64,000 nucleotides of DNA, from NCBI GenBank assembly GCA_024305745.1, contig JAHRBS010000002.1, forward strand, positions 2,294,001 to 2,358,000, read 5' to 3'. This stretch comes from Polyporus tsugae. Its lineage: Eukaryota > Basidiomycota > Agaricomycetes > Polyporales > Polyporaceae. The notes under the pieces are model-generated. The model worked only from the letters and a program-made list of their open reading frames with translations. It did not search any database and was not told the DNA's origin. How positions within the stretch are numbered: position 1 is the first letter of the stretch; each line of letters opens with the position of its first letter. Shown piece after piece: positions 24,506 to 57,275 of this stretch. The position numbers and the translations under genes are program-made.

Positions 24506-24996
24506 TATGGTGCAAGGCGACTAGTCACCGCTACTTTTGTACAAGGGTAACTGGTCCCCCAGATTTGCCCAAATTTCACATATTTTTTGACCAATCGACT
24601 CCTTTTGAGGAGAGGAACAAATCTGTCAAGGCGTTTTTCGAAATTCGAAAAACTGACGGAGTTACAAATTTGGCAGGTCGCCAAATTGGCCAGTGATGGG
24701 AATTAACTTCCATATATAGTAACTCCTACCATATACAGCAGTGTAGACGCCGGTGTATATTGCTCGAGCACTCCTAATCTTGTCTAAAGTGACGGGAAAA
24801 GGGTTACAAGCGCATCCTCTTGAAGTATATCAAGGTATTAGTACAGTAGTATATGTATATCCTCCCTCAAAAGTTACCAGTTCTCGGCGAGATGACCGGT
24901 CGGCTGGGCGCTTTTGAAGGCGCTTAAGTTAGGTTGACCTCGAGGTCAAATTGGCCGCTGTACAAAAGTAGCGGTGACTAAGCGCCTTGCACCATA
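24506..24996. mobile_element. MITE family A, copy 1 (491 bp)
   Basis: Non-autonomous DNA transposon. Terminal inverted repeats run inward from TATGGTGCAAGGCGACTAG to TAGTCACCGCTACTTTTGTAC; the right end reads the complement, ending GCACCATA. TA at both ends would fit a TA target duplication, as for Tc1/mariner-like elements. It encodes no protein. A second copy of exactly the same length lies at 50132-50622, with long near-identical blocks such as GAGGAGAGGAACAAATCTGT. Confidence 0.87.
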
Positions 24997-25524
24997 GTAC
25001 TGCAGCGCCCTCTCATGTTTCTGTAGAATGGAAGGCCTCTCCCGAACGAAGCACCGAAGTCATCACTGCGCCGGTCTTGCACTAACACAATTGAAGTAAG
25101 TACAGACACGCCTTGAAAGTTCGACTACCACTGATCGATGGATGATGACTCCAGGCTCATGGGCTCCGGCATTGGGACGGTCAACATCAGATCACATCCC
25201 CGCTTCTAGATAGCTGCCCTCGTTTCCGGGAACTAATTTATCGCTGCTCGCCTCCTGGTTCCATCCCCCGAAGTGCGAGCTTCTGCATCATGTTTGTGGT
25301 GTGGTCTTCTCGCGCGGCGTGTTAGCGGAATTATTGAATATGGCAAAAGGCCACGCGTTGGAGCGCTGGAGTATGTGGGACTTGTACGTGGGAAGCGTTG
25401 ACACTACAGATCCTCCGGGGTCCATTTCGCCATGTGTACTAGATGACGAAAAGCATCCCAGGGTATAACCCCCCCTCACTTCAGGCCCCCCCGGGACCCA
25501 TCGCACACAGACCTCTCCCACAGC
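24997..25524. other. intergenic, promoter side of the GMC gene
   Basis: About 530 bp between the MITE and the GMC start codon. No gene seen. The MITE therefore lies in the upstream region of the GMC pseudogene. Confidence 0.4.
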
Positions 25525-28500
25525 ATGGAACAGAAACTCGCAACAGTCGACGACGTTGCCCAGAAGTCATTTGACTTTGTTGTAGTCGGTTCGTCCACCT
25601 GTTTTCTCCCTGTTCCACCGTTCCTCCACGGGCCGTTGCTAACGCTGTTATCTGGGGCATCTAGGTGGGGGTGTAAGTAGAGACTCCTTCATTGTGGTGC
25701 TTGTTCCTTGACAACTTGTTCACATGTTAGGTTTCGGGATGCACTATTGCATCAAGGCTGTCGGAGAACCCGGATGTCTCGGTCGTCCTCTTGGAGGCTG
25801 GCAACTCACACTTTGATGATCCGCTCGTCTGTGAGTCCTGTTGGTGCCGTGCACATATAGTTGCCACAAGTGACTTTTGATACCCATATCATTCTGCAGC
25901 TGTCCCCGACAGCTGGATGCAGCAGGTCTTCAATCCTGAATATGACTGGGTTTTCCGTACCACCACCCAAGAGAAAGTCATCAACAACGTGACCACTCCC
26001 AGTGGTGGCCCCGATCACAGCTTCTACTGGTCACGGTATGTCGATCATTGCCATCACTCAATCCATCTCGATGATTGACGGGCCCTACATTCGTCAGAGG
26101 TAAAGGTGTGGGCGGAAGCTCGTCCATAAACTTCCTCTTCTGGACTCGGCCTCAGCGTGAAGAGATAAACGGTACGCATGCTGGTTAGAATGGGAATTTT
26201 TCATGTGGCTCACTATTTTCTGTAGCCTTGGAGGCCCTCGGGAACCCCGGGTGGAACTGGGAACGTTTCTTCGCGGCAGCCAAGAGGGCCGAAACGCAAG
26301 TCAAATTTGTCTCTGTGCCGTTACGGAGATGGCTGATCTCGCTGACGTCCCCCCTTGTCGTTGTAGTTTCCACCCGACACCGGCAAACAACCATCCTGAA
26401 TTCTTAGAGCTGTACAGCAAGGAATCTGTTGGACACGGTGGTACGCCTGCCATCTGTGTGCTATTCAAGGATGTAGCTGACGTCTCAAATCTACTACTAG
26501 GCCCTGTCCCTATTTCGTTTTGCAAGACTGTGTCTGGAGCTGAACTGTACTTCCAAAAGGTACGCACGACATGATTCATTACAGTGCAAAGACGGTCCAA
26601 ACACCTCACCTGGTATAGGCTTTGGAAAGTCATGGCATAAAGACACTTGACGATGGGGTGAGCTTCTCCGCGAGATATTTATTATTCTGAGGTATTAACG
26701 AAACATGCTTGCATTTCAGCTTGGTGGTTCGGTATGTGCGCCCAGTCTGGTCATATTACTGACCATTGGCTCACTCGAGATGTAGCTCTCGGGCACTTTC
26801 AAGGCCACTGCGAACATAGATCCCCGCACAGGCACTCGCAGCACGGCGGCAACTGTACGGTCTACTACCCATCCGTGCGGAAGAGCCAGAGCTTAATCTT
26901 GTCCCGCAGAGTTACCTTTTCCCGGCTCTAGACCGCCCGAACCTGAAAGTCCTCACCGGCGCGTACGTGAACCGGATCGTGACCGAGAAGGATGGCGAAG
27001 AGGTCGTCGCCACAGGCATAGAGTTTGAGCATGGTGGGCAAGTCCACGTTGTCCACACCGCGAAAGAAGTGATCCTGTGTGCAAGGTGCGGTGTCTCGAG
27101 CTGCTGTTTGTCATCCTCGCTCATTGCCTTCCTTACCAGCACGGTGAAGTCGCCACACATTCTCGAGCTCGGTGGTATTGGAAATCGCAAAGTATTGGAG
27201 CCCCTCGGCATCCCTGTGCAGATTGACCTTCCGTCGGTGGGCGAGAACCTCCAAGATCACCTCATCTTCACCAGCTGCGTCTTCGGTACGTACAAGAACC
27301 GGTCATTCGAAACGCACGCTGATGGTCAAGGTGTCAGAGATGAACAACGACCACGGCTTTGTGACGAGCGAGACGATTACATTGCCCGACGTACAAGCGA
27401 AGCTTCGCGGCATCTAGTGCGTAGTACATCCCGCATTTCTTCGACGTGTTCTGAAGTATTATGACACAGCGGGGAAACTGGAGGTCCCATCTCCCTGGCT
27501 TGCACCGGAGTTACGTTCCTCCCGCTCCAAACGTTCTCCGACCGCGCGGACGAGCTGATCGAGAAGGTCGAGAAGTGAATTCAGGAGCATGCGGACAAGC
27601 TCTCTCCGGGCCTGAAGGAGCAGTATGAGCAGCAGCTGAAGATGCTCAAGGACAAGAACGTGCCCGATATCGAGATCGTCGTCTTCCCCGTCAATGTCCA
27701 CCCCCAAGGTGCGCTTCCCATATGATTCCTATATGCCCAGACTTGCAGCGTGCTCAATGCCCGTGCCATGCCAGGCCCTCCAAAGCCCCACAGGGGCTGC
27801 TCCCTTCCATCGGTCATCCGTTCTCCTGTGGCACGATCGTTCGTCGTCTGCCTCCAATTCGTCTCTAATATTCTCGGACCTGACCTACGACCTCTTAGCA
27901 CGCGAGCTCAAGCGATCCGAAGGTGCAGCCGACCATCGAGCCGAACTACCTCGCGGAAGAGATCGACCTCGAGATCCTCTTCGACTCCGCAAAGTTCGTG
28001 CGCAAGGTCACCGCGGACGGTCCTTGGAAGGGTGTCAGCAACGCGGAGCTCATTCCTGGTCCCGGCGTCACGACGGAGGAGCAGCTGCGCGGTACGGATA
28101 GCCATACCAGTTGCTGTTGAGTTGTGAAGCCGGTGTCTGACTTGAAGCCTGTGTTATGTGCAGAGTTTGTCAAGTCGAACGTGTCGACCACTTGGCGTAC
28201 GTGTCCCCCGGCGTTGTTTCAGCCCGAACCTCTGAACTTTATGTTGTTCTCATGCTGCCTTACTTCCCCTTGGCAGACGCGTCTGGTACGTGCTCATTGG
28301 CACCCAAGGACAAGGGAGGCGTCGTCGACACCCACCTCAAGGTTCGTGCTCCCTTCCCCGTGAATTCAGCAATCTGTATACAACTGTCCTCTTCAGGTGT
28401 ATGGAGCAAAGAACATCCGCGTCGCTGATCTGTCGATTCTCCCTCTCCTAACTGTTGTTCACACCCAAGGTATGATTCTGTGCTCGGTTTGAGGATGTTC

Positions 28501-37521: not shown

Positions 37522-38543
37522 ATGCCGTCCCAAGGGACCTATATCCGTCTTCCCGCTTCATCCTCGCCTCTCGGCAGCCTTGAACCACTCGAGTACGACG
37601 AGGAGACCAGCCCCGAAGGACGAAACACTTGTTCAAGTTCCCACTCCAGCCGCTCCCTGGTTGGAGTGTCGGAAGGCACTGCCTGGAAGCTCTTTGTCTA
37701 CACGTGTATCACCGCCCTTGCATTGTCTGCAGTCAACATATCCTATTTGTCGGCGACCACTACGTTGCAGACCGCGCGAGCCGTATCGGCTGCCGAGCCG
37801 TCTCCAGACCTCAAACGCCCGACTGTGTACCTGGGGCTCGAAAACGTTGTTTTTGAGCAGTCGTACTGCCGCAGCCGCGGAACGTTCCCCAAATCGTTCT
37901 TCACGTACGATGTTCGCGACGGGCCGCATGCGGAGCCCCGCCATGTGCACGCGCCTGATGACAAGATGACATTGAAGTTCGGTGGTCCGGTACGTCGCGT
38001 GCCTACTTGTACTTTTGTCGGTAAATGTCCTTACGCGTACGCCCTCTCTTCTTTCAGGTTCGTACGGTCGTCGACTTTTACGTTCCCGACTACGGTCTCG
38101 AGAACTGCACGCTCAGCGCCAGACGCTACCCAGACCACCGGACCTCAGACGGCTCGGATAACAGTGCCCACGCACTGGACACTGCGGTAGACATTGACGT
38201 CTACCTGCTTCCGTCGCAGCATGTGGATGACCGCAAGGCCGCAACCTTCCTGGACACCTTGGCATTCGTCCCGGGCAGGGAGAGTACGTCCAAACCATTC
38301 CACTGTCCCGGCCGTTCGCATGTATTCCTGGAGTGGCGCTGCGCCACAGAAGACTGCGAGATCGTGATGTCGTTGGAAGGGGCGACAAGCCTGAGTGAGT
38401 TACTGCTCGTGTGTGGAACGTGTGCAGTGCAGCTGACATGGGACATAGCTGCGTCAGCCGAATCATTGACGAAAACGGGGTTTCGAATTACCCAGTACGA
38501 GGCGATGGGATGCATCCCCGGTGTTCCGAAGCAGGCGGCCTGA
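37522..38543 (+). CDS. single-pass membrane protein of a basidiomycete hypothetical family
   Basis: ATG 37522 starts MPSQGTYIRLPASSSPLGSL. A cytosolic Ser/Glu-rich segment is followed by one membrane helix (LFVYTCITALALSAVNI, residues about 57-75) and a large extracytosolic domain with RPTVYLGLENV. Intron 1 (GTACGT..TTTCAG, about 37990-38058) joins to VRTVVDFYVPDYGLENCTLS. Cysteine-containing blocks (FHCPGRSHVFLEW, CATEDCEIVMSLEG) follow, and a second short intron near 38400 may remove a loop before GFRITQYEAMGCIPG. The stop is TGA 38541-38543. The layout matches a common polypore family of unknown function with a But2-like C-terminal domain; that assignment is from memory of the pattern and is uncertain. 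The upstream in-frame ATG at 37333 is probably not used. Intact. Confidence 0.7.
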
Positions 38544-39028: not shown

Positions 39029-39981
39029 TTAGACCGTCTTCTCCCTGGATTCAGTGGTGGCAGCGGTGTCTGTCCCGCCACCAGCCTGCTCATTCAGACC
39101 CCAATTCTCGTCCTTGATCTGCTGCAAGCCGACCTCCCTCATCAACCACGCGCTCAGAAAGCCCAATCCCCCAATCCCAATCATCACCTCCCACAGTACG
39201 TCCAGCGACAACGTGAACGCAGCCCGAACCTCCCCTTTCATCGGCTCCGCCAGGCCCTTGATCTGGGGGATCGCCGCGTACGTCTCCACGAGGAGCGCAG
39301 AAAGCACGATTGCGAGCTGGGACATACCACGAGGGGACCGATGATGGACGCAATAGACCAGATGAGCCCGATCGCGCCCTGGTACGCACCGCGCTCACTC
39401 AGCGGAACGAGGTCCGCAAGGATGATCTCCGTCAGTGCCAGGATCACCCCAGACCCCAGTCCCTGCACGGCTGCATCCGCGAACATGTGTCTGTCAGCAT
39501 TCTGCCCGCTGCGCACAAAGAGACGAGTAGTAGTACTCACTCCGCCCGCCAATGAGCATGACCATGCTGGTGGCGGCACCGCACAGGGCGCTTCCGACTG
39601 CGAAGAGGGCGAGGCCGATGAGCAGAACCGGCCTGCGTCCAAATAGATTCGCAAAGTGTCCTGAGAGCGGGAGGAACGCGACACCAGCGAGGGTGTAGGC
39701 TGAGCCGATCCATACGAACTGTTGGCCTTGGAAGTGGTTGACGATCGTCGGCAGGGCCGTCGACACTGCGCTCTGCGAGGGAGTATTCAGTGAACATTCT
39801 AGACTGCGGCAGGCCTGGAAAGAGCTCAAATGGGGCTACCTACGGTATCGAGTGCGGCGAGAAAGGTGGCGATGGTGATTGCGAGCAAGGAAAGCCAGAA
39901 GGAGGCGGTTTTTGGAGGAGAGCCCGCTTCGTCTTTGGGACCTCGTTCGAGGACGGGTATTTCGCTGGTGGATTGTGCCAT
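39029..39981 (-). pseudogene. internally deleted MFS exporter (MFS-2 delta)
   Basis: Inverted near-identical copy of the MFS gene at 51605-53779, retaining its introns. From ATG 39981 it encodes MAQSTSEIPVLERGPKDEAG, helix 1 (WLSLLAITIATFLAALDT), AVSTALPTIVNHFQGQQFVW, motif A (FANLFGRRPVLLIG) and AVQGLGSGVILALTEIILAD up to SIIGPLV. It then jumps, at about 39280, straight to AAIPQIKGLAEPMKGEVRAA and the last helix. Compared with the full copy, 52305-53532 (about 1.23 kb, roughly helices 5-13) is missing. The junction lies in what is intron sequence on the 5' side, so no normal transporter can be made. Mismatches to the full copy are few, so the duplication or conversion is recent. Homology stops near the start codon and just after GLN at the C-terminus, where the tails differ. 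Confidence 0.93.
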
Positions 39982-40982
39982 GAGTGCTCAAAACGCAACC
40001 CTCAGTGGAAAGACAGGAGTGTGTATCTACGGATATTGCAAGGCGGAATGAGCGTGGGGATATGGATGCTGCAACTGAAGTCAGAATACATACCCGAAGG
40101 TACCAGCAAGGGATGATGTAACGGGCAGGGACGTTGTTGAGGTGTTGATAAGTTTTGTTTGAATGTTGAATGACGTACAACGTGGGTGATATACGGCCTC
40201 CCGCGGACGGGCCCATCTTGAGCAATCACGGTTTCGAGGGTGGACTCGGATCCAATCGAGTCCAAGAGTTAATCATGGCAGTTCGGTGAAATTCGCAGGC
40301 ATGGAGGCTACCGCAATCCTCTTCTCAGCTGGATCAGGATCCGAGGAGAAGGGATGCACAGTAGCGGACGAGAAGCATTTCAGAGCTCCATCGTGCGGCG
40401 TAGCGCTGGGCGCCACCACTTACATAAGCCATGACTGTAAAGGGTCTCTTCAGTCTCTTCTCTCACCATCATGCCACCGCCCCTACACCGTGCGGATTCA
40501 ATTCGATGGCCGCCTTCTCACCTCAGGACTTGTATCCACCGTACGAGCGGCGTCGGATGCGGTCCGACGTCTTAGCTCTTCGAAGCTTCCTAAGTGACTT
40601 GAACCAAGGCCCCCGCCACCCGTTCTCAACTGATTGCCATTCTTGGGACGTCAGCGAATGTGAGTTACATTCCCACACGAGAATTGTAGGATCACCCTGG
40701 CGTTACCACACACAAGCAGTCACCGTGGATGAAGCTACATATGATATGTAATGCACAAAGCTCCAGGCATTGAACGTTGGCATGAAATACGCTACGTTCG
40801 TGTTACAAGCATCACAAATTTATCCATTTCACCCTAACATGTCCAATCATCAGGCCAAGCCATCGAGGTCGTCGCACATCGGATGCTATTGGAGCACGAA
40901 AGCCAATGTTAGTCCTTGTAGACGAATTTTCAGGTGAGAAAGTTCTCCTACCGGTCCTGCAACGCTGGTTCAAGGTCTTGTA
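39982..40982. other. intergenic, no gene seen
   Basis: 1.0 kb between the deleted MFS and the small secreted peptide gene, both on -. Upstream sequence of the two MFS copies is not shared beyond about 2 bp before the ATG. A frame at 40286-40597 + shows no motif. Confidence 0.4.
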
Positions 40983-41286
40983 CTAATATTTCTTCTTGTC
41001 GCACGGGATGCCGGGAATAGGGACGTTGATAGTGAGGTCCACTGGGCCCGGCTTCATGAGCGCGGGGACCGCGACGAACCAGCCGACACCGTCGTCTTCG
41101 TCGCCCTGGCGCGCTTCGACTGCCTCTGCCGGGGCCGCATCTGCAGCCCTAGGTTCTGTGGATTCCGAGTGCCAATCAGTTAGGGTATGGATCTCCCGTA
41201 TAGGTTCACAGCATACCAGTGGGCGCAGAGAAGGCGGAGGAAACAAGGATGGACAGGACAGACGCGAGGATGAGGGTGCTGCGCAT
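40983..41286 (-). CDS. small secreted peptide, candidate precursor (80 aa)
   Basis: Two exons, 41286..41217 and 41155..40983, with a 61-bp intron (GTATGC..CCACAG), give 80 residues. Residues 1-21 form a textbook signal peptide (MRSTLILASVLSILVSSAFS then A), with cleavage expected after Ala21. An Ala/Glu-rich spacer (about 22-40) leads to GDEDDGVGWF (41-50). A hydrophobic Pro-rich C-terminus follows with VPALMKP, INVPIP and IPCD, closing DKKKY. There is one cysteine (Cys75) and no disulfide pair. The paralogue at 49223-49501 keeps residues 40-76 almost unchanged while its leader differs, which suggests the C-terminal part is the functional product. It lies next to UstYa-like oxidase genes. By analogy with ustiloxin-type pathways it could be the ribosomal precursor, but it lacks the tandem KR-bounded cores of those precursors. 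It could also be an unrelated small secreted protein. Confidence 0.75.
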
Positions 41287-41716
41287 GATGCTGGATGACG
41301 ATGGTGCGACCAAGGAGAGCTATGTACCCGACGGCCTCGCCATTCCGACAGTGTCTTATACTAGAGATTTGTGAGACTCCCAGGCGCGTCATGTTTGGAA
41401 CGATGGGCTCCAGGGCGAAGCGCGCCGCGAGTGCGTGGCGCTGATGTCCAACCTGGGTTTTCGCAGATGCTCACAGGCTTGAATGCTAAGGGGATGCCGG
41501 CCATGGCGCGCTGGTTCCTTGAATACGTTCAACATCTTTCAGGTATGAGGGAGTCTTCCATCTGACCCTGTAATACGCACTGAAACCTTCCGTCGGGTTC
41601 ACCTAGCTTCCTAGCCCTATCGAGGGTGTTCCATGTCCTCAACTAACTATAACCTGCTTCCGGTCCTTAGCCTCTCCGTGCCGCGCGCGCACGAACCACG
41701 CTCCCGTGCTCCACGT

Positions 41717-42290
41717 TCAAGCCGTACACCCGCAGTCCAGACACGCGTGCGGCATCTCCGCGTTCACGCTCCGGCGCCGTAGGATCGGGATCACCGCCGG
41801 CTCCAGAGTCGGGTTCGCCTCGCACACGGTCGCCTGTGGAGGTAGTTGAAGCAGTGGTAGACGTGCTCCTATGACCGGCGAGTACTCATCAGCGCTGGCG
41901 GCCGAAGAGGGGTTCTTCTGGCCCAAGCGATTGAATCCACCGTCTTCGGAGAATACGGAGGACGGCTCCGGACCACGTCCTCGGTATGGTCTGGTACTGG
42001 ACGTGTTTTTGGGGTGTGAGAGATACGGGTGGGGTGGGAGGCGGGGAAGTCGTCGCCAATGTATGCTTAGGTGAGGTTGAGGTGAGCACGTCGTGTGCGT
42101 TAGGATGTTCAATGGCGAATAACTTGTATTGGTTAACCCTTAGGTAGTTGACGCCGGGATGTGGTGGCTCATGAGATAGGGATATGTTGAAAGCGAGGGT
42201 AATGAAAACTAGGAAGAAAGCAGGCCAATAGCTACAAAGGGGAGACCGTACTGGGTTGGATTGCCTTCTCCCCATGAACGTCATCCTCAA
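41717..42290 (-). pseudogene. broken UstYa-like (DUF3328) gene, left arm
   Basis: Degenerate inverted counterpart of the intact UstYa-like gene at 48443-49158. The membrane-anchor exon is still visible (YWPAFFLVFITLAFNISLSH, about 42225). A decayed intron follows, then AYIGDDFPA (about 42060), after which about ten bases are missing and the frame shifts. Later blocks appear in other frames: TED/REW-like, SLGPEEPLFG, then ANPTLEPAVIPILRRRSVNA and HACLDCG (41830-41740). About 40 bases that encode the first HxxHC catalytic motif (HQMHC in the intact copy) are deleted near 41895-41902. At least two frame disruptions make it non-functional. Nucleotide similarity in the last 130 bp is still high. 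Confidence 0.88.
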
Positions 42291-42517
42291 TGCCCCCCAC
42301 CGCTACGATGCATGCTCCCATGGGGATTGTTGCCGTGGATATGCATACTAAGTAGTAGCCATCTCTCGAAGTCACCTCCGGAAATCTCAGCAAACAGCGA
42401 TGTCCCAATGTTACCGAGCGCCGGTCGATCGGACTTTTCATCGTGTCGTGCGTGAAGGGTTTGAAGCCTAGAACGTGTATGCTAGCCGCCCCAAGAAACG
42501 ATACATTCACGTGAATA

Positions 42518-43232
42518 TCACGGATATGCGTCCGCCGGCCATCGCTCGAAATTCTTCTCGGCCTCTCTTCGCAGCATGGTCCAATCACGGCACTGGTGCT
42601 CCAGCCCCAACCCATCCACCTTCAACGCCTCCTCCCCAAGCCCGTGCCCCTCCTTCACTGGTTCGAGGTGCACGCTCGCTGCGCACAGCAGCATCTGCCG
42701 GACGTAGTTCAAACAGTGCTGCGTGTGCCAGATCTCCCATTCCGTCGGCGGGACGCCCACGACAGCGCGTCGCATCTTATCGAGGCAATGGAGCTGGTGG
42801 AACATCGATACCCCAAACAAGCGGTTCTTGGGCCCAAGGCGCACGAATCCCCCCGAGCCGGTGGGGAAGAGCGAGGCCCACTCTTCCGAGGCGTTCGGGT
42901 GGTAGTGCACAGTGTCCTCGACCACGAGTGCCGAGTCCCATGGGTGCTTGGAGAGGGGAACGAAATATGGGGGGAAGTCCGACTCGAGGAAGGCTAGGTA
43001 AGACATGATAATACAAAGAGCGTTAGACTGACGCGTCGTGCAGAATGACAGGCGCACGGAAATGATTGAAGATGGACTAACAGAAGTCTTGTTCACGCCA
43101 TTCGTCGCCAGCAGAGGCGATGTTCAGGGACTTCGAGAGGCTTAGATTTATTGCGAGGGCGATGGCGATGACGAGAGCAGATGAGAGGTAGTACAGCCAC
43201 CCTCGTCGCGTTGAGGGGAGGGTGGAGGACAT
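42518..43232 (-). CDS. UstYa-like DUF3328 oxidase (UstY-1)
   Basis: Type II membrane enzyme of the UstYa/DUF3328 family. Ascomycete members catalyse oxidative cyclisation or related oxidations of ribosomal peptides and some other metabolites. Two exons, 43232..43082 and 42993..42518 (GTTAGT..CCTAG), give 208 residues, normal for the family. Seen: helix YYLSSALVIAIALAINLSLS (about 13-32), VHYHPNASEEWASLF, GGFVRLGPKNRLFG, first catalytic motif MFHQLHCLDKMRR, and second motif HTQHCLNYVRQMLLCAASVH followed by LEPV (HxxHC and HC). The expected C-terminal HxCRDW is present as HQCRDW. All conserved histidines and cysteines are intact. It is diverged from the 48.4-kb gene, so it is not part of the recent duplication. 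It is divergent from the 7TM gene at 43890 across about 660 bp. Confidence 0.93.
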
Positions 43233-43889
43233 CGCGCAGTGGTGGCAGGAGATGGTAGGGGCAAGCTGGACAGCGGAACACGAGATTCTCCAGCTATCAC
43301 AGTCTCCGGTCGCGACGTGTGTAAGTAGTCTGGAAACATGTTAGATCCCAGGTATAGAGCGGAGATGGTCTGCTGCAGGGCGTCGGAATCATGGTCTGGC
43401 ATCGGATTCGGAAGACTCGGGCGCATCAGATTCAGAGAGCGCCGAAAAGGCGACCCACTTGCACAAACAGCGGAGTTTCAACCTTGTTTATATGGCTTTC
43501 TCGGCGACAATTTCCATACTTACGTCTCGGATCAACCAAATTTCATTCAGCTACATCGGTCCAAAGAACCCCGCCCTTACAGTAGCTTCATGCGTCGTCG
43601 GCTCCCCAGCAGCGCTCCCGTCCAACTCAATTGCCCGCCGCTCATGCCGCGAAAGAAGATGCCATGAGGGTGACGCCAAACCTTCCCGTCTGTATGGAAA
43701 GTGGGCGTGGCAACGACCAAGGTTCAGTACCCCTTCGGTGGTAACGCCCTATGCCCCACTCTGAACCCAGGAACCGACTCACCTGAATAGCGTGCCATAT
43801 TGTTCGTTGCCGTTCCCGGCGCATATACATACGCACCTCGACGCGCTCCACTGCTCACAGGCCTTGCAGGGCAGTACGGCATATCCACC
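43233..43889. other. divergent promoter region
   Basis: About 660 bp between UstY-1 (-) and the 7TM-A gene (+). No independent gene. It probably contains both promoters. No clear operator or palindrome was recognised. Confidence 0.4.
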
Positions 43890-45138
43890 ATGTCCTCCCT
43901 CACGGCCGCCCGTATGAGCTATGCCGCTGCGCTCGTCGCATCCGTAACATTTGGTGGGTTTTTATCCCAAAGACACTCGCACGGTTGCTTATCGATTTGG
44001 CGTGGTTTCCAGGTATCTACTTCGCCATTGCGGTGTACACCGCTGCCAAGATCATCCAGAGCCCGACCCGCCATCGGTCGGGGAAGAAGGTCCTCCTGGC
44101 CTGGGTCGCCGCGACATTTGTGGTCCAAATGATCTACTACGTAGGCGGTTCCAAGTGGAGCGAAATCGAGTTCGTAGAGTCCACAGTGGACCCCGGTGTG
44201 TTCGCCAGTCAACTCTCGTCTCGGCTGGCCATCTTGAAAGACACGTCCTACACCGTCATCATCTGGCTTGCGGACGGATTCATTGTGAGACGAATCAGCT
44301 CCCATATATGATTCCTTCGCTGAATCGCCCGCTTCTCTACATAGTTGTATCGCGCTGTGGCGATTTTTGCAGACAAGCTTTATGTGGTCATCCTCCCCGC
44401 GCTTCTATACCTTGCGTCGATAGGTACCTACCTCTACATTGTACAGCGTCCTGCGTGCCTTCTCGCTGACTCTCACCTCCACAGCGACCGGCATCGGTCT
44501 TCTGGTCCAGACGGCGAAGCCCGGTGCCGCGTTCGGCCAGGCGTCCGTCATCGACTTCGGCACCCCGTTCTGGTCGCTCTCCGTCAGCATGAACGTGCTG
44601 ACGACGGTGCTCATCGCGGCGCGGCTCATCTACCGGCGCCATGCCCTTCTCGACTCGACGAGCAAGCGCAAGCCGAGCGCGTACTACAGCCCCGAGGTCG
44701 CGATCTTCCTCGAGAGTGCGGCTCTGTACGCGATCTGCTCGATCATCTACATCCCGATGTTCGCAGAGGACATCCCGCTCCAATTCCCGTTCTCGGCCCT
44801 CCTCGGGTCTGCTGCGGTGAGTCAGACTCGAACCCCTTGCACCCACTGCGCGCGGAACGCGTCCGCACGCCCATGCTGACGGAGACGGCTGGCGCAGAGC
44901 ATTGCGCCGCACTTCATCATCTTGCGGATGGTGAGCGGGGAATCGTCGAGGCTCGAAGCGAGCCTCATCCCCCTGCAGGACCGCGGCGGCGACTTGGAAG
45001 TTGCAACAAACATTGACGGTGCCCAGGCACAAGGGCCAGAGGTCAGTCCCCTTCCATCGTCTCGATAACTGCGAACCCGGTCCGACCTCTCGTTTTGTCT
45101 AGTCACCGGACGGAGACAGTTCGTTGCACAAGGCTTAG
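43890..45138 (+). CDS. 7TM integral membrane protein (7TM-A)
   Basis: Unknown-function basidiomycete polytopic protein. Exon 1 43890-43953 (MSSLTAARMSYAAALVASVT) is spliced at GTGGGT to 44013. Following blocks: GIYFAIAVYTAAKIIQSPT, VLLAWVAATFVVQMIYYVGG, VEFVEST-like EIEFVESTVDPG, VIIWLADGFI, LYRAVAIFADKLYVVILPAL, ATGIGLLVQTAKPG, FWSLSVSMNVLTTVLIAARL and FLESAALYAICSIIYIPMF, then a last helix and a hydrophilic tail. Two ends are possible: a stop at 45068, or a 62-bp intron (45041-45102) leading to SPDGDSSLHKA and TAG 45138. The second resembles the DGDSLV ending of the paralogue at 55383 and is preferred. It shares the exon-1 layout and many residues with 7TM-B. Intact. Confidence 0.8.
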
Positions 45139-45517
45139 GTTCGGCTGTGCGGTTCGTGATCGGACCGTAGTGGAACGATTTGGGTTTTATTGTCAGCTGT
45201 ATGGTGTTTCGGATTGTCAGTGTTTGTGCGTCCGGCGGATGAGCGGATGATTTGAGGCAAACGGATACCCCGCTTTCATAGGCTCATAACATGTACCGTC
45301 TTGTTATCCTTTGAACAGCATACACCGTTCAAATCCCACAGGCATGGAGTTGTCAGCACAATGTATAGGTGCTGTTGAAAGCCTGCTAGTCACTACCCTC
45401 TGGAAAAAAACTTAGCGTTAACGCCTTTTAGCCAGTCGCACATCCGATTCAGACTGGCACAAAATTGTACTAAAGCTGAGAGTAAACAATCGTAACGAGA
45501 AAGCTCTGAGGCGCATC

Positions 45518-47517
45518 TCAGGCTCTCCTCAACACAATAGACAGAGACGGTACATGAAGACGACGATCTTTCCCGGACCCCGTGAAGTAGATGGCGTTGA
45601 TGGCGGCGTTGTTGCGCACACCCCAGATGTCCTGTCCGTTCCAGTACGGGTAGCAACCCATATGCTTCTCGCCGTTGTACCCGGGCAGACCGGTGTCAAT
45701 CCTGTAGCGTCCATGTCAGAGAGAGAGACAGAAAAAGACGTAGTCAGCGTCCATGCCGCACCAAGCGCAATAGCGGAAAGGGAGGGGTGTGCGCACCTGA
45801 GCTCGTCGCGCCGCATGCTCGAGCGGAGCGCCAGGCGTCCGCGCGCACCGAACTTCTCCAGCGCGTTCGTGCCCTGGAGCGTCAACTCCTCGATGTACAG
45901 CGTGCCCTTGTTGATGATGATGTGCGCCGACGACTTCTTCTCCGCCCCGTGATCCTCGTCCGTCCACTTTCCCGCGTACAGCTCCGTGGACAGGTCGGCG
46001 AGCGCTCGGTCGATGCTGGGCTGGAAGATCTCGAATGCATCGTATGCGAGCTTCGCCGCGTCGGGGTAGTGGCCGCCCAGGAGGACGACCACGCCGTAGC
46101 CCGTGCCGGGGTGAAAGGCAACTGCACTGTGGTACCCCGCCATCGCGCCGACTGTGTACGCGATGAACGACGGATTAGAAGCAGACAGACCGAGAAGAGG
46201 GAGAAAGCGACTCACGCTTCCAGTAGATCTTGCGTGCGCGGCCGTTGGAGTCCTTCTGCTTGATGATCTCCCAGATGAACCCGATCTCCGTCCAGTCGTC
46301 CTCCTCGAACGCGTGGACGGTCTGGAGCCACTTGTCACGCGAATACTGCGAGATCTGGCTCTTGGAATGTTTGGCGTTCAACAGCGTCTGCGTGACAGTG
46401 ATCAGGTCTGCAAGCGACGAGAATTGGCCACCTGCGGGGTTCATCGCGTCCAGGAAGTCTTGGTCCTGCAGAACCGGACATGAGGGGCTTGTCAGATTGT
46501 ACAACACAGAGGTGGCTCACAGCGACTTCGGGCCCCAGAGAAGGCACGACAACGAGATGCTTGTTCTCATCCGTGGTCAGGAAGTGGCTCCCGTTGAGAC
46601 CCATCGGCCCAAAGATGTCGCGCTGCAGAAGATCCGCATACGTGATGGCGGGAGAGACACCCTTCGCCTTGCTGTCCGCCGCCGCGAGCGCGATGCCGAG
46701 CAGCCCCGTCCCAGTGTTGGAGTACGCCGGGTACGACGCAGGCGGCGACGTCAGGTGGTACTTGGCGATCGCATCGAACACGTTCTGGTGCGAGGGGAAC
46801 GGGTTGCCGTTGGTCGGCGGGGGCCCGCCTCCAACCAGGCTGTCGGGCCAGCCAGTCACCGTCCCGGGCGGCCAATCCCGACCAAGGCCCGAGGTGTGTG
46901 TGACGAGTTGGTAGAGCGTCATAGGCGTCTTCTCGCGGAGCTCGACTGGACGCTGGGGATCCAAGCCGTCCAAACGGTACTGGTAGTCTTTGAAGTACTT
47001 GTCGACAGGATCATCCCTGTACGTTCTGAGAGTTAGCCGTACTACATTTAGCACAGCAAGGACGCAGTACGCACCATGAGAGTATGCCCTTCTCTTCCAG
47101 AATCAAACCCTCGAGAGCAGTGAAGAGCTTCGAGACCGACGCGATGCGGTACTGAGAGTGACTGGTTGTAGGAGGAGAGGTCGTGGTCTCATTTCCTCTG
47201 TTCACACCCCAGTTCTTCTCGAAGAGGACGCCATTGGAGGTCACGACAGCGATGGACAGGCTGTCGATGTCGCCTTTGTCGAACCGCTTGGTGAAGAATT
47301 TATCTGCACCCTTGGCCGCAGTGCCAATGGCAGAGTGGCTAGTTGTGGGAGGGGTGTCGGTGAAGAGGTTGGGAATGAACGGCCGGCAGCTGAAGCGTTC
47401 AGATTCGTCCTCCAGTACGTTGGCTGAACCCAAACGGATCTGAAGGTGACCAGTGTAATATGCGCCCAGCACAAGGGAGACGGCCGCGACGGCTGCAGCT
47501 GGTGGCGGGGTCCACAT
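45518..47517 (-). CDS. class C beta-lactamase-like serine hydrolase
   Basis: Membrane-anchored or secreted serine hydrolase of the beta-lactamase/penicillin-binding-protein-like (S12) family. Fungal members are mostly esterases, transesterases or peptidases. ATG 47517 begins MWTPPPAAAVAAVSLVLGAY, one N-terminal hydrophobic helix. Catalytic motif 1 is SVSK (Ser-x-x-Lys) in IASVSKLFTALEGL and motif 2 is YSN in YPAYSNTGTGLLG. A later FHPGTGYGVVVLLGGH block may be the third motif region. After five or so introns the C-terminus reads IDTGLPGYNGEK, YWNGQDIWGVRNNAAINAIY, ending TGA 45520-45518. No lesion was found. In metabolite clusters such enzymes can release or transfer acyl groups, but nothing here proves that. 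A 67-bp relic of the same gene lies at 33155. Confidence 0.88.
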
Positions 47518-48442
47518 GTTGAACGCAAGGTACGATTCAGAGAGCAGGACGAAGCTCAGCAGTCGTCAATAGGCGCGACTCCGGGATGGGAAGCGGCGCG
47601 GCCAAGGCCGAAGATGGAGAACGCCTGGGTACCAACTTCCTTATGTACTTTGCGGTATTTGGGAGGCTTCGCCGGTGGCGCACGCCGCATGTAGTCAGCA
47701 CCGTGAGGAACTTGTAGCATTCGCACGAGCATGATAACTTACGCCGGGGGAAGATGACATGCAAGCCGCGAACGAGGTTCCCCCAGTGCGACTTCTGGAC
47801 GTGATCGTGCTGCGGTGTGAACTGCTACGAACAGACGACGAAACTACACGGGGAGAAGCCATATGCATCAGATAGAATTCCTGAATCAGAATGAACGCTG
47901 GACTTTCCTCTGGCACTGAACCGAAGCCGACCGGGATAGGATCCGATTGGCGGAAGGCAGGCCTGCGCTGGCACCAGTGCTCGCGAGCAGGCAGGTGGGT
48001 GTCAGTGTACGGTACGTGGGATCCGGCAGGGCTGGGGCAGGGCCGTCGTGAAGTGAGCCTCGATCGAGAGCGACCGTTTTACTCCGGAAGCACTGTCCCC
48101 AGCGAGTGCCACCGGCAAGTCCCGAGAACCCAAGGCGCTGCTTCCGAATTTGTCCGTGGGAATCTGGTAAGTAGATGATATCAATCGCGTGCGGCTGCAA
48201 CTTGGGTGCAACTGGAGTGGTCGATAATTAAATCCTTGTGGTGAAAAACACAGGCGCGATAATATTCTGCAGGCACAGGAATCAGCTCGGATGTGAGTAC
48301 TTTCGAACACTCTTTCCCTGGGGGCCGCGCGCACCAATGGGCGGTAGATCTAGACTCAGAAGGAGAGCCCGCACCGGCACCGCTAGGTCATTAACTAACT
48401 TGCAGCGTCGCTGCCAGCAGAGGTTTCACGACGCGTTACTCC
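47518..48442. other. divergent promoter region, no gene
   Basis: About 925 bp between the hydrolase (-) and UstY-2 (+) start codons. Frames present are motif-free. Promoters for both are expected. Confidence 0.4.
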
Positions 48443-49158
48443 ATGATGCGCATGCTACGACTCACAACGCCGTTACGGGGTGCCCGTCTATGGACTGCAC
48501 ATGTTCTCCTTTTCGCAGCCGTCGTCCTCTTACTCACTGCTCTCATCTCCCTCGCCATCAACATACCGCTATCCTACAAGTCACCGCTGCCCAGTGTTCG
48601 CCGCCCAGGGACACTCGACCAGTACAGTAAGCATACTCGTGGCTCCCCACCGTCCTGATGCATGCATATTCACCTCAATCTTCAGCATACATCGGCGATG
48701 ACTACCCCGCCTACTACCCCATCCAAATCCCACCTGTATCCCTCACACCAGAGAACACCATCCACTACCAAATCTACACCGAGGACGCCGCACGTGAGTG
48801 GTCCTCCATATTCCCCAAGGGTGGCGGATTCCTCCGCCTGGGGCCAGACGGACGCCTCTTTGGCCTCGCCCTCTTCCACCAGATGCACTGTCTCACCCGC
48901 ATCCGGCGCGCGATGAGCACCCGCCAGTCGTCGGATCATGTCCACCACTGCTTCAACTACCTGCGACAGGCGATCCTGTGCGAGGCGAATCCGACGCTGG
49001 AGCCGGTGATCCCGATCCTAGGGCGCCGGAGCGTGAACGCGGAGATCCCGCACATGTGTCTGGACTGGGCGCGAGTGTACGACTTGGTGGAGGAGCAGTT
49101 CGAGAACGGGGATGCGAGGCGCGATGGGGACGAAGGTCCAGAGGCGGTGTATGTGTAA
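48443..49158 (+). CDS. UstYa-like DUF3328 oxidase (UstY-2), right arm
   Basis: Intact partner of the broken gene at 41717-42290. Exons 48443-48626 and 48686-49158 (GTAAGC..TTCAG, 59 bp) give 218 residues. Seen: an N-terminal cytosolic basic stretch, membrane helix VLLFAAVVLLLTALISLAIN (about 21-40), YIGDDYPAYYPIQIPPVSLT, REWSSIFPKGGGFLRLGPDG, first catalytic motif LFHQMHCLTRIRRAM, second motif HHCFNYLRQAILCEANPTLE, and C-terminal MCLDW in the position of the family HxCxDW (the His is replaced: IPHMCLDW has His two before Cys). Start: three nearby ATGs (48443, 48446, 48452); the first is used here. The expected role is copper-type oxidative modification of a peptide in the secretory pathway, as for UstYa proteins. 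The peptide paralogue begins 65 bp downstream in the same direction. Confidence 0.93.
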
Positions 49159-49222
49159 TATATTTGGGACATGTCTTGTCTTTCCTTCGGTTCTATCCAA
49201 CAAGCCACCCCTGGAAATAGCC

Positions 49223-49501
49223 ATGCGTAACTTTTTCATTGTCACCTCCCGCCCACTTCGTGCACTCTTGGGGCACCTGTCGGTGAGTTCCAGCAAAAAC
49301 GATCGCGGACGAGGAAGATGCGCGAAAATGAACGCGCTTACGCAGAGGCGGAGGTCACGAATAGGAGCCCCGAGGTCGATTGCATGTCAGGGCGATGAGG
49401 ACGATGGCGTCGGCTGGTTCATCGTGGTGCCCGCATTGATGAAGCCTGCGCCTGTGGACATCAACATCAACGTGCCAATTCCTGCCATCCCGTGCGATTA
49501 G
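49223..49501 (+). CDS. paralogue of the small secreted peptide (71 aa), leader diverged
   Basis: Two predicted exons, 49223-49282 and 49346-49501, have a 63-bp intron (GTGAGT..CGCAG), close to the 61-bp intron of the other copy, and total 216 nt in frame. Residues 1-20 (MRNFFIVTSRPLRALLGHLS) are a poor signal peptide because of internal arginines. Exon 2 starts basic (RRRSRIGAPRSIAC) and then enters the conserved block GDEDDGVGWF, VVPALMKPAPVD, INVPIPAIPCD and stops at once (TAG 49499-49501), lacking the KKKY tail. Either this is a decaying copy with a damaged leader, or a variant precursor. It lies 65 bp behind UstY-2 in the same orientation, whereas on the left arm the intact peptide follows the broken UstYa. 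Confidence 0.6.
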   Translation: MRNFFIVTSRPLRALLGHLSVSSSKNDRGRGRCAKMNALTQRRRSRIGAPRSIACQGDEDDGVGWFIVVPALMKPAPVDININVPIPAIPCD

Positions 49502-50131
49502 CTCACGAAGACCCGCCAGAGAGATCAGCTTGTTCGAAAGGTATCATTACCTTCTGTGTCTTCCCAGATCCATCGACGATTGTTGACGGTGACAAGGCTG
49601 GTGTCATAGGGAATTCTTCGTCATGTCGGATGGGCGCCAGCGTGGGACAGTGTCCATGATGAGATACGTTTGAATTGTACACACGGATATGTAGTGTCTG
49701 CGATGTGACGCGGAAACGAGGGCCCGGGGCCCGCGGTATCTTGTGGCGTTGGATACTAACTGCCCATCTGACCTCGGAACAGTGCTTGCGTACAGGCACT
49801 GAAGCACACTAAGAAAGTAGAAATAAAATGCACGTCAGAAGCCGAGCACCCGCGGCCGAACAACGCCATGTCACCAGAGATCGTAAAGGCGGAAGGCACG
49901 ATAGACGGGTCCATGGCAGACTCACGGCTGCCGAGGTCAGCGGAAGATCGTCGGATGAAGATATCGGTGATTGTACAGCTTGAACATACCACAGAATTAA
50001 AACCTGCGTCCGAGCCAGCGGTTGCAAAGATGCATCTAGAGGATCCGGCTCATTTGACGTCGGAGGTAAGGCAACTGCCAAGACCATGCGGGCGGCCTAT
50101 GTGGTCGGCGTAGACCTTAAGTTATGCTTGG
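49502..50131. other. intergenic, no gene seen
   Basis: 630 bp between the peptide paralogue and the MITE. Frames on both strands lack motifs. Confidence 0.4.
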
Positions 50132-50622
50132 TATGGTGCGAGCCACTTAGTCACCGCTACTTTTGTACAAGGGCAACCCCTCCTCCAGATTTGCCGAAAT
50201 TTCCCAGATTTTTTGACCAATCGACTCCGTTTGAGGAGAGGAACAAATCTGTCAAGGCGTTTTTCGAAATTCGAAAACCTGATGGAGTTACAAATTTGGT
50301 CGGTCACCAAATTGGCCAGTGATGGGAATTACCTTCTATATATAGTGATGATTACTATATCCGGTACTGTAGACGCTGATCTATGGTGCCCGAGCGCCGC
50401 TCATGTTGTCTGCAGTGACACGAAGTGGGCTACAAACACACTCTCTGCGACCTCCACCAGTTTCAACAACCTCATTTTACATACATTCTCACTAGAAAGT
50501 GCCTGGTCGTCACCCAACAAGCACTCCCGAACGGGCGCCCCAAGGGCGCCTAAGTTAGGATGACCTCTAGGGCAAATTGGCCGCTGTACAAAAGTGGCGG
50601 CGTCTAAGTGGCTCGCACCATA
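50132..50622. mobile_element. MITE family A, copy 2 (491 bp)
   Basis: Same element as 24506-24996 and the same length. Ends are TATGGTGCGAGCCACTTAG and its inverted complement; the inner repeat reaches TCACCGCTACTTTTGTACA on the left, TGTACAAAAGTGGCGGCG on the right. The 5' two-fifths is nearly identical to copy 1; the middle is more diverged. No coding capacity. Confidence 0.87.
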
Positions 50623-50852
50623 GGAGATGCTTCGAAGAGGGTCGTGATGGACGGAAGTAAGTATGCAGAGCTTCGCATTCGGCGAGGGTTCGGCGCCGAG
50701 GCGCCCAAGAGGGATCGCGAGGCTCGAGCGCTAGTGCTGATGAATCGGAGATGACCTCGGCGACGATGCGGCTGCGAAGGTTACTAACGCTCGCATTCAT
50801 TCCTTCCATTCCAGCTCTTCGAAGTCATGCACACGGCTACAGTTCAACCACA

Positions 50853-51309
50853 TACAGATGAAACCCTCTTAACCCATACCCCTCGGTATAGCCCATAATG
50901 TATGGGTTTTCGGGGGTTATGGGCTACCTAAGTATTGACGCCCTATTGACGCGCAGGAAAACTGCGGGCCGCCGGCGCCAGTCGGGCGCTGTACATGGGC
51001 AGTGCCGCAGTGGGCAGCATGCCGGGCATACTCGACTCCCTTGACCGTCGGTAACACATTCATAAAAACACCTACGGTATCCATGGTGGAATTTGTATCG
51101 AAAAGTACCAGCTGATGGCTCTTCAACTGGGCGCCTCCCCATACATTATGGGGTTTGCAGGCCCCACGGAGGTATGGCTTATAGGGTATGGGGGGATTAT
51201 GGCTTATGTGGGCGCTTCCCCCCTATACCAACTCGGTGAACTCGAAATCCTATGGGATATCGGAGTTTATGGGTTATAAGGGGTATGGGTTAAGAGGGTT
51301 TCATCTGTA
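50853..51309. mobile_element. MITE family B (457 bp, long perfect TIR)
   Basis: Terminal inverted repeats of about 30 bp match perfectly: left starts ACAGATGAAACCCTCTTAAC and continues CCATACCCC, right is its exact complement. TA on both sides fits a TA target duplication. The interior is full of short ATGGGTT/ATGGCTTAT-type units in both orientations and codes for nothing. It lies upstream of MFS-3. Confidence 0.85.
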
Positions 51310-51604
51310 TCATGATGAGAAGAAGCTCACGTCCGCCTCTTCTCTGACCGGGCTATGGAGCGCTCATCCTGTGTCCAGTGCGGCACCTCGCGCCCATGGT
51401 GCTTCGAAAGAACCATGATATGTGACGGACGATGCAACGTGTTTCCTCGCAGGAAGTCATCCGGGGAATAGTTAGTATCCCGACACATGCTATCCTCGGT
51501 CTTCCTGCGGGGACAGAGACGTAGGTTCCCAGTTCTCGTGTTCAGCTACCTTTCCGCCCGCTTTCCCACCCACTCACTGTCTTTCTCCGTCTCTCGTCTC
51601 AGTC

Positions 51605-53779
51605 ATGGCACAATCCACCAGCGAAATACCCGTCCTCGAACGAGGTCCCAAGGACGAAGCGGGCTCTCCTCCAAAAACCGCCTCCTTCTGGCTTTCCTTG
51701 CTCGCAATCACCATCGCCACCTTTCTCGCCGCACTCGATACCGTAGGTAGCCCCATTTGAGCTCTTTCCAGGCCTGCCGCAGTCTAGAATGTTCACTGAA
51801 TACTCCCTCGCAGAGCGCAGTGTCGACGGCCCTGCCGACGATCGTCAACCACTTCCAAGGCCAACAGTTCGTATGGATCGGCTCAGCCTACACCCTCGCT
51901 GGTGTCGCGTTCCTCCCGCTCTCAGGACACTTTGCGAATCTATTTGGACGCAGGCCGGTTCTGCTCATCGGCCTCGCCCTCTTCGCAGTCGGAAGCGCCC
52001 TGTGCGGTGCGGCCACCAGCATGGCCATGCTCATTGGCGGGCGGAGTGAGTACTACTACTCGTCTCTTTGTGCGCAGCGGGCAGAATGCTGACAGACACA
52101 TGTTCGCGGATGCAGCCGTGCAGGGACTGGGGTCTGGGGTGATCCTGGCACTGACGGAGATCATCCTTGCGGACCTCGTTCCGCTGAGTGAGCGCGGTGC
52201 GTACCAGGGAGCGATCGGGCTCATCTGGTCTATTGCGTCCATCATCGGTCCCCTCGTGGTATGTCCCAGCTCGCAATCGTGCTTTCTGCGCTCCTCGTGG
52301 AGACTGACTGAGTGGATGCTAGGGCGGTGCGTTCGCGGCGCGGCAGGACTGGACATGGCGCGGACTGTTCTGTGAGTACCGCTACCGCGCTGAGAGCCTG
52401 AGACGAAGGGGGCACTGAATGCAAGCGATGGACAGACTTGAACCTGCCTCTGACCGGCATCTCGATGGTGCTCTGCGTGCTCTTCCTCAACCTGAAGACA
52501 CCGCACGCGCCCCTCTCGGAACGTCTGTCGCGGATCGACTGGATGTAAGCCCTACGCGTCCGTCATTCTTCCTGCCAGTGCGCAGTTCTGATTTACTCTG
52601 ATTGTCAGCGGGAACGTTCTCGTGATGGGCAGCACCACGTCTGCACTGCTGGGGCTGACGTGGGGTGGCATCCAGTTCCCGTGGACCTCGGCACAGGTCC
52701 TCGCGCCGCTCATCATCGGTTTCGTCGGGCTGTTTGCGTGGGTGGTGTACGAGATATACGTCCCCGTTGAGCCGACGATCCCGTTCCGCCTGCTCACGAA
52801 CCGGACGTCGCTGAGCGGGTACATCGGGACAGGCCTGCACGGCTTCATCATCTCGGCTGCGCTGTGTAAGTGATGCCGGTTGTCAGTGTGTGCATTCCAG
52901 ATCACGTACTATGCTGACGAGATGGGCTGCAGTCTACCTGCCGGTGTACTTCCAGGCGTGCAAGGACTCGTCGCCGGTCGGGAGCGGGGTGAACATCCTG
53001 GCGTACAGCCTGTCGATCGCGCCGTTTGCGATGGTGGCCGGGGGCACGGCGACGGCGATGAACAAGTACAAGCCGCAGAACGTGATTGCGTGGGCGTGCA
53101 TCACGATCGGGATGGGTCTGCAGAGCACGCTTGGTGCGGACAGCGCGACGCGGAACTGGATTGGGTTCCAGATTGTTGCTGGGATCGGGTTCGGAATGCT
53201 GGTATGTGTCTGGCGGCCGGCTTTGTCGTGGTCTGGGTGCTGACCTGTGGCCGCGTTTGCGTTTGTGTGCTCAGTTCACGGCGACGACATTCCCGATCCT
53301 GGCTCCTCTGCCTGTGGAGCTGAATGCGAGCGCGCTGGCGTTCTTCATCTTCATCCGGACATTCTTCCAGGTTCGTCTCCCTTCTGTCCATCTACAGTCT
53401 GCATGTGAGCCCTCTGACGCGGTCTTTCCAGGCGTGGGGCATCACGGTCGGTGCGACGGTGTTGCAGAACCAGCTGCGGTCTCGTCTTCCAGAGGCATTC
53501 CTGACCAGTCTACCGCAGGGAGTGGAGATTTCGTACGCGGCGATCCCCCAGATCAAGGGCCTGGCGAAGCCGATGAAAGGGGAGGTTCGGGCTGCATTCG
53601 CGTTGTCGCTGGACGTGCTGTGGGAGGTGATGATTGGGATTGGTGGATTGGGCTTTCTGAGCGCGTGGTTGATGAGGGAGGTCGGTCTGCAGCAGATCAA
53701 GGATGAGAACTGGGGCCTGAATGACAAGGAGGCGTTACCACCCCGAGATGTTGGTGCGTCTGTCGAGAAGGCGGCTTAG
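51605..53779 (+). CDS. MFS exporter, DHA2 type (MFS-3), full-length right arm copy
   Basis: Plasma-membrane exporter with 14 expected helices. ATG 51605 (MAQSTSEIPVLERGPKDEAG). Blocks in order: helix 1 WLSLLAITIATFLAALDT, STALPTIVNHFQGQQFVWIG, motif A FANLFGRRPVLLIG, AVQGLGSGVILALTEIILAD, LSERGAYQGAIGLIWS, SIIGPLVGGAFAARQDW, NLPLTGISMVLCVLFLNL, GSTTSALLGLTWGGIQFPWT, TNRTSLSGYIGTGLHGF, YYLPVYFQACKDSSPVGSG, FTATTFPILAPLPVELNASA, WGITVGATVLQNQLRSRLP, final helix VMIGIGGLGFLSAWLMREVG. TAG 53777-53779. About nine short introns, no lesion. Its 5' and 3' parts are nearly identical to the deleted inverted copy at 39029-39981, and a decayed third piece lies at 56990-57275. Likely exports the product of the locus. 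Confidence 0.94.
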
Positions 53780-56989: not shown

Positions 56990-57275
56990 GCGTACACGGG
57001 GTCTGCAATGCTGCGCAGGTCCGCATGAGTATACCCACTGGAACTGGCTACCAAATACGAGTGCTCTGGCACTCTCTCTCGTTATCCGGACCACGTTCGT
57101 CTTTCTCTGTCTGCAGTCTATATACATATATGCGTGCAAATCGTCTGGTGTGGTCCTTTCAGGCGGGGAGCATCCCCGTTGGTGCGACAGTTTTACAGAC
57201 CCATCTCTGGTCCCGTCCCCTCGACACGTCCCTCGCGTATCTACTGCAGGGTATGTACACTTCGTATTACGCCCA
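56990..57275 (+). pseudogene. decayed exon relic of an MFS-3-like gene
   Basis: The frame with FQAGSIPVGATVLQTHLWSR and LAYLLQGMYTSYYA (57157-57275) aligns with the MFS-3 segment encoding FFQAWGITVGATVLQNQLRS onward. The preceding 57058-57118 follows the MFS-3 exon end and intron (ATCCGGAC, CTGTCTGCAG). I estimate two-thirds identity by eye, far below the two main copies, so it is older. No other part of the gene was found nearby. Confidence 0.65.

Follow-up and report, generated by a model that had tools for sequence, protein, structure and literature searches.

The window analysed here, a stretch of 64,000 nt from contig JAHRBS010000002.1 of Polyporus tsugae (assembly GCA_024305745.1, positions 2,294,001 to 2,358,000 of the forward strand), contains a cluster of genes for UstYa-type (DUF3328) oxidases and a small secreted peptide, part of which is duplicated in mirror image together with a neighbouring major facilitator superfamily (MFS) transporter gene. 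The arms of the duplication have decayed in a complementary pattern, the core of the peptide is conserved, and the association of oxidase and peptide genes recurs elsewhere. The cluster, with the neighbouring MFS gene, probably makes one secreted, modified peptide, and would have been mirrored in part before complementary decay set in. It is best read as a basidiomycete cluster resembling those for ribosomally synthesized and post-translationally modified peptides (RiPPs), in which single-core precursors would be oxidized by paired copper-dependent UstYa enzymes.

Mirror duplication and decay of the arms

Four inverted matches, all in strict mirror order, were found when the window was compared with itself using BLAST. 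The MFS genes matched over 51600-52304 versus 39986-39282 (705 nt, 99.3% identity) and, in their 3' part, over 53522-53724 versus 39289-39090 (203 columns, 93.6%); the UstYa genes matched over 48670-49097 versus 42085-41707 (70%, gapped, E 1.8e-54) and the peptide genes over 49388-49497 versus 41108-40999 (81%, E 1.9e-22). The arms lie at about 42.1-39.0 kb and 48.7-53.7 kb. Peptide and MFS genes are separated by about 1.0 kb in the left arm and 2.1 kb in the right, where about 0.96 kb of the extra spacing is due to two inserted elements with terminal inverted repeats, recognized by self-comparison at 50126-50623 and 50852-51310 (the latter with perfect repeats of 32 nt). A second copy of the first element, 76.6% identical, is located at 24500-24997. 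From the sequence, a single inverted segmental duplication is the simplest account of the mirrored similarity and spacing. The original prediction, a mirror-image duplication of UstYa, peptide and MFS genes, is thus borne out: inverted similarity is present outside the MFS genes, and order and spacing uphold the view that the three genes were mirrored together.

Two working trios, as the prediction implied, are not present, the arms having decayed in complementary ways. In the left arm, the UstYa-B copy (41707..42085, minus strand, recognized by its similarity to the right copy) is degenerate, with frameshifts and a deletion of about 37 nt that takes out the first HxxHC motif. In a Pfam scan of the whole genome (43.2 Mb in 18 contigs) it is not among the 20 UstYa places found, which include the two intact UstYa genes of the window. 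The left MFS copy (39029..39986, minus strand) is also degenerate, about 1.2 kb of its middle (matching about 52305-53521 on the right) being gone, including the acceptor of intron 3. The right arm carries an intact UstYa-B and an intact MFS gene of the drug-efflux type (51605..53779, plus strand, 9 exons, 546 aa; MFS_1 E 4.6e-38, TRI12 E 6.3e-16). The UstYa-B/peptide/MFS end of the cluster would have been duplicated as an inverted copy at a distance of a few kb, and decay would have left the working UstYa-B and MFS genes in the right arm and the working peptide gene in the left. The locus is a natural example of an inverted duplication that divides a cluster into complementary halves.

Counting the window, three mirrored UstYa regions were seen in the genome. 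A palindrome at C11:1673212-1710470 contains four UstYa matches in arms of about 17 kb, the identity being 97% near the centre (4.3 kb) and then 86%, 81% and 74% outward; at C15:698409-712371 a third inverted pair of UstYa-bearing segments is 70-84% identical.

UstYa genes

UstYa-A (42518..43232, minus strand; exons 43232-43082 and 42993-42518) is intact and contains the motifs HQLHC and HTQHC; UstYa-B in its right copy (48443..49158, plus strand; exons 48443-48626 and 48686-49158) encodes 218 aa with the motifs HQMHC and HVHHC. Both belong to the UstYa/DUF3328 family (PF11807), with E 1.2e-17 (64.9 bits) for UstYa-A and 5.7e-16 (59.5 bits) for UstYa-B against a cut-off of 25 bits, and both show the pattern HxxHC(x)nHxxHC. 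Over 53 sequences the cysteines of these motifs never vary, and conservation of the histidines is 90% or more. In a predicted single-chain structure of UstYa-B exon 2 (mean predicted local distance difference test score 73.5) the motifs are placed on neighbouring helices, 71-87 and 93-107. Three matches to solved structures, considered as possible UstYa relatives, were at chance level (E 0.26 or worse). The lone weak UstYa-like match among prokaryote genomes, at 2722-2901 of a contig of a bacterial metagenome-assembled genome (32%, E 8e-6), possibly reflects fungal contamination.

Peptide genes

The left peptide gene (40983..41286, minus strand; exons 41286-41217 and 41155-40983) was delimited by homologue search, alignment and splicing. 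It encodes a precursor of 80 aa composed of a probable signal, a short pro-region, a conserved core (GDEDDGVGWFVAVPALMKP...INVPIPGIPC) and a KKKY tail; the hydrophobic N-terminus ends with AFSA/P (judged by eye only). This precursor and its relatives contain one core each and no repeats: neither repeated cores between KR, RR or KK sites, as in dikaritins, nor tandem repeats between KEX2 sites, as in the KEX2-processed repeat proteins (KEPs), are present. The precursor is equal in length to that of Ganoderma adspersum and 89% identical to it, and the left gene is probably the working copy.

The right copy (49223..49501, plus strand), compared with the left one and spliced by hand, has an open frame and a poor leader. 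The leader has a deletion of 10 nt, the pro-region is shifted, and most of the core is kept; the basic residue before the core and the KKKY tail are absent, and the protein terminates at PCD. Its core deviates at V51, A52 and G72, all of which are invariant across the 13 rows of the alignment, and on these features the copy is probably decaying. The two cores show 22 differences over 37 aligned codons, 15 at third positions, corresponding to 0.087 nonsynonymous (dN) and 1.12 synonymous (dS) substitutions per site (NG86), rough values for so short a stretch. The low dN relative to dS points to purifying selection on the peptide during a large part of the period since duplication.

A possible third copy at C8:357735 (E 0.07) looks like a chance match. 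The peptide also matched Neurokinin_B below the cut-off (E 0.015), but over the signal only, and this match was set aside. The peptide was absent from the plasmids and viral contigs searched. A search of 18 stretches near other UstYa genes with five patterns of peptide-like motifs produced, outside the window, a single match, which was irrelevant.

Paralogous clusters in the same genome

Two further clusters, C8:1117k and C8:1182k, each contain an A-type and a B-type UstYa gene (identity to the window genes 45-56% and 53-54%), with a small peptide gene right after UstYa-B and a facing gene, here called X. In the window, gene X (37522..38543, plus strand) encodes a predicted membrane-anchored protein in two main coding pieces with approximate intron edges; it is 45-51% identical to C8:1114612-1115434 and C8:1185451-1184630 and matched no Pfam family at E <= 0.1. 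UstYa-A, UstYa-B, peptide and X stand in the same order and on the same strands in C8:1117k and are mirrored in C8:1182k. The left arm shares its order and strands with C8:1117k, which indicates that the genes originally stood on the left and that the right arm is the duplicate.

A tblastn search of the C8 clusters and of the other UstYa regions that were fetched found no MFS gene, so the conserved unit comprises UstYa-A, UstYa-B, peptide and X. The predicted trio had overlooked the intact UstYa-A and gene X, and should be restated as these four genes, with the MFS gene as a local addition; a defining role for the MFS gene is unsupported, the MFS pair also being much younger by sequence. The predicted link between UstYa and peptide holds, as it recurs in the two C8 clusters and, by locus tags and equal-sized contigs, in other polypores.

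Three peptide genes were modelled on C8, at 1116659 and 1123297 (minus strand) and 1183345 (plus strand), one of which lies about 5 kb upstream of the UstYa pair of C8:1117k. In these hand-spliced, provisional models the peptides have a common signal, MRG[LI]LA.IFTIPLF.LAAYGA, and three exons, the middle one variable; their mature parts showed no similarity to the window peptide.

Relatives in other fungi

Among about 5.8 billion proteins, 12 relatives of the left peptide were accepted from 15 candidates; one further, distant member came from a profile search. Named carriers are Ganoderma adspersum, Trametes coccinea, T. cinnabarina, T. sanguinea and Polyporus arcularius. Between genera, identity was 78-89% in the core and 30-42% in the leader, as determined from eight pairs among the 5 of 13 sequences that have a plain full leader (the other 8 look mis-spliced or cut). 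Across the aligned sequences from Ganoderma, Trametes and Polyporus, the leader varies while the core hardly changes.

The search with UstYa-A and UstYa-B profiles gave 209 proteins at E <= 1e-10, of which the best 120 were used. In T. cinnabarina a B-type UstYa (BN946_scf184943.g45) adjoins the peptide gene (g46) by locus tag; in G. adspersum a B-type UstYa (V8D89_001591) is four numbers from the peptide (001587), as the present gene order of the window predicts. Among the matches listed, a peptide, an A-type and a B-type UstYa are joined by equal sizes of the longest contig (19899 and 22731), and at least 12 contig sizes, those two included, join an A-group with a B-group protein, with Mycena, Hysterangium, Exidia and Obba among them. 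These joins are based on equal sizes and not on contig names, and the rows concerned entered the tree because of their equal sizes. A tree of 46 rows separates the A group from the B group with moderate support (ultrafast bootstrap/SH-aLRT 93/61 and 89/94); each group includes the window gene, two C8 genes and genes of other genera.

Proposed function and alternative explanations

The signal would take the precursor into the endoplasmic reticulum, where UstYa-A and UstYa-B, as membrane-bound binuclear copper oxidases, would oxidize or cross-link side chains of the core. Cleavage behind the basic residue that precedes the core, and at the lysines of the C-terminus, would free a product of about 36 aa, which the MFS protein may export; gene X presumably also has a part in the pathway. 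A secreted precursor, a core flanked by basic residues and the UstYa motifs together fit RiPP maturation in the secretory pathway, and from them we infer that the peptide is modified by UstYa.

Several observations weigh against this interpretation. The core is long and free of repeats, unlike dikaritin precursors, and its strict conservation is unusual for a RiPP. Among the best 120 of the 209 UstYa matches, a UstYa-A of G. adspersum was not present, nor, for T. coccinea, T. sanguinea or P. arcularius, was any UstYa that shares its tag prefix with the peptide. The UstYa-A of the C8:1182k cluster (C8:1181645-1182115) is probably degenerate, since it contains an internal stop and its second HxxHC reads HLQHY; because of this stop and the lost motif cysteine that cluster may be decaying. 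As to complementary decay, the hand-spliced frame of the right peptide is still open, so that its expression is possible. Finally, DUF3328 proteins also act in polyketide and non-ribosomal pathways, according to PMC12048977.

This last point, together with a degree of core conservation far above that usual for a RiPP core, would also suit a peptide that is an unmodified secreted signal, defence peptide or small protein, UstYa-A and UstYa-B being neighbours by history that use another substrate; the characterized KEP-derived peptides of Agaricomycetes are, as described in PMC9769878, mostly linear or little modified. We regard this as unlikely, since the order of UstYa-A, UstYa-B and peptide repeats in two paralogous clusters whose mature peptides are unrelated, and UstYa-B adjoins the peptide in T. 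cinnabarina. An assembly error, such as two haplotypes joined head to head, is highly improbable: the near-identical MFS stretch might mislead an assembler, but the arms differ by 6-30% outside the MFS genes and have separate deletions and insertions, the contig is 3.16 Mb long, and the gene numbers of G. adspersum are consistent with the present order. Also rather doubtful is a separate and recent duplication of the MFS genes, the old inverted duplication having comprised UstYa-B and peptide alone. It is suggested by the 5 differences in 705 nt (introns included) between the MFS copies, against 22 in 111 nt between the peptide cores, by the abrupt start of similarity 4 nt ahead of the MFS start codon, and by the C8 clusters without MFS genes. 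However, once the two inserted elements are subtracted, mirror order and spacing fit one segment, and at their 3' ends the MFS copies drop from 94% to weak similarity, like the end of a gene-conversion tract. With a single duplication as the preferred reading, the contrast between 99.3% identity in the MFS genes and a dS of about 1.1 in the peptide cores suggests that the MFS copies either were homogenized at a later time, for which gene conversion between the arms is the simplest mechanism, or were copied separately; that MFS sequence was found at just these two places in the genome.

A wider proposal is put forward tentatively, as a possibility falling short of the preferred reading in confidence: a separate basidiomycete RiPP class in which an ancient UstYa-A/UstYa-B pair, with X, would act on single-core, non-repeated secreted precursors, with a polypore product near-invariant between genera and paralogous precursors in the same genome that combine a fixed signal with a fast-changing core exon. 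If true, such nearly letter-for-letter conservation of a product is what one would expect from either a signal or a peptide acting on a single conserved target.

Comparison with known systems

The dikaritins of Ascomycota (ustiloxin, phomopsin, asperipin-2a, victorin) likewise have DUF3328/UstYa oxidases and a nearby transporter; their secreted precursor with a signal has a putative counterpart in the window peptide, and ustiloxin, with UstYa and UstYb, has two oxidases as does the window cluster. Dikaritin precursors contain repeated short cores between dibasic sites and are accompanied by an ascomycete accessory set, whereas the basidiomycete cluster described here has one non-repeated core of about 36 aa and gene X. 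As defined by Ding et al. (cited in PMC12048977), dikaritin clusters include a tyrosinase and a methyltransferase; neither was found among the 22 window sequences in the Pfam scan, a minority of the 81 open frames of at least 150 aa. One or more DUF3328 genes are present in the window, and the place of the transporter or peptidase gene of dikaritin clusters is taken by the intact MFS gene at 51605-53779. The window cluster would work like a dikaritin cluster but lacks the repeated cores.

CctR, the DUF3328 hydroxylase of cyclochlorotine, is described as membrane-bound, dependent on O2, binding two coppers, and inactivated by histidine or cysteine mutations in HxxHC, both motifs being needed (PMC12435403). 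It resembles UstYa-A and UstYa-B in family, in the pattern HxxHC(x)nHxxHC and in having both motifs on neighbouring helices in the model; its substrate is a cyclic peptide of an ascomycete pathway. Lichen RiPP clans R1 and R2 also have UstYa homologues without a repeated precursor, but PMC12048977 reports no precursor at all for them, whereas the window has a conserved candidate.

UstYa genes in mushrooms are not new, as DUF3328 neighbours are on record for 103 of 1680 basidiomycete KEPs (PMC7329392) and 16 UstYa-like genes for Pleurotus (PMC8893723). Those KEPs are similarly secreted precursors beside DUF3328 genes; the window precursor has no repeats, and a repeat-based search would therefore not list it. 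What is new is the single-core precursor and its conserved setting. Among the open-licence PubMed Central papers listed, by titles and the starts of abstracts, no UstYa/peptide cluster was described for Ganoderma or Trametes, and a review classes the dikaritins among ascomycete RiPPs (PMC9233826). As the surveys in PMC7329392 and PMC9769878 detect precursors by repeats, non-repeated precursors beside conserved UstYa pairs would escape them, and the occurrence of the A/B pair in several mushroom-forming orders (among the matches listed) means that a hidden set of modified peptides may be reachable. The peptide may represent a new group of fungal peptide products, and strict conservation of its core points to a defined target or a signalling role.

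Other genes in the window

Between the arms lie a multi-pass membrane protein gene (43890..45070, plus strand, borders approximate), with a paralogue near 55.6-56.6 kb and a relative in the C8:1182k cluster, and a serine hydrolase gene of the beta-lactamase family (45529..47517, minus strand; PF00144 in two exons, E 6e-13 and 2.1e-9), a relative of which adjoins UstYa-A in the C8:1117k cluster. The paralogue at 55.8 kb gave a DUF6534 match below the cut-off. Both genes are neighbours that may or may not belong to the pathway. Further MFS-like genes or pieces are located at 14207-16083 and 57054-57266, with about 50% protein identity to the right MFS, and 26820-27461 is an exon of a GMC oxidoreductase (PF00732, E 2.9e-13).

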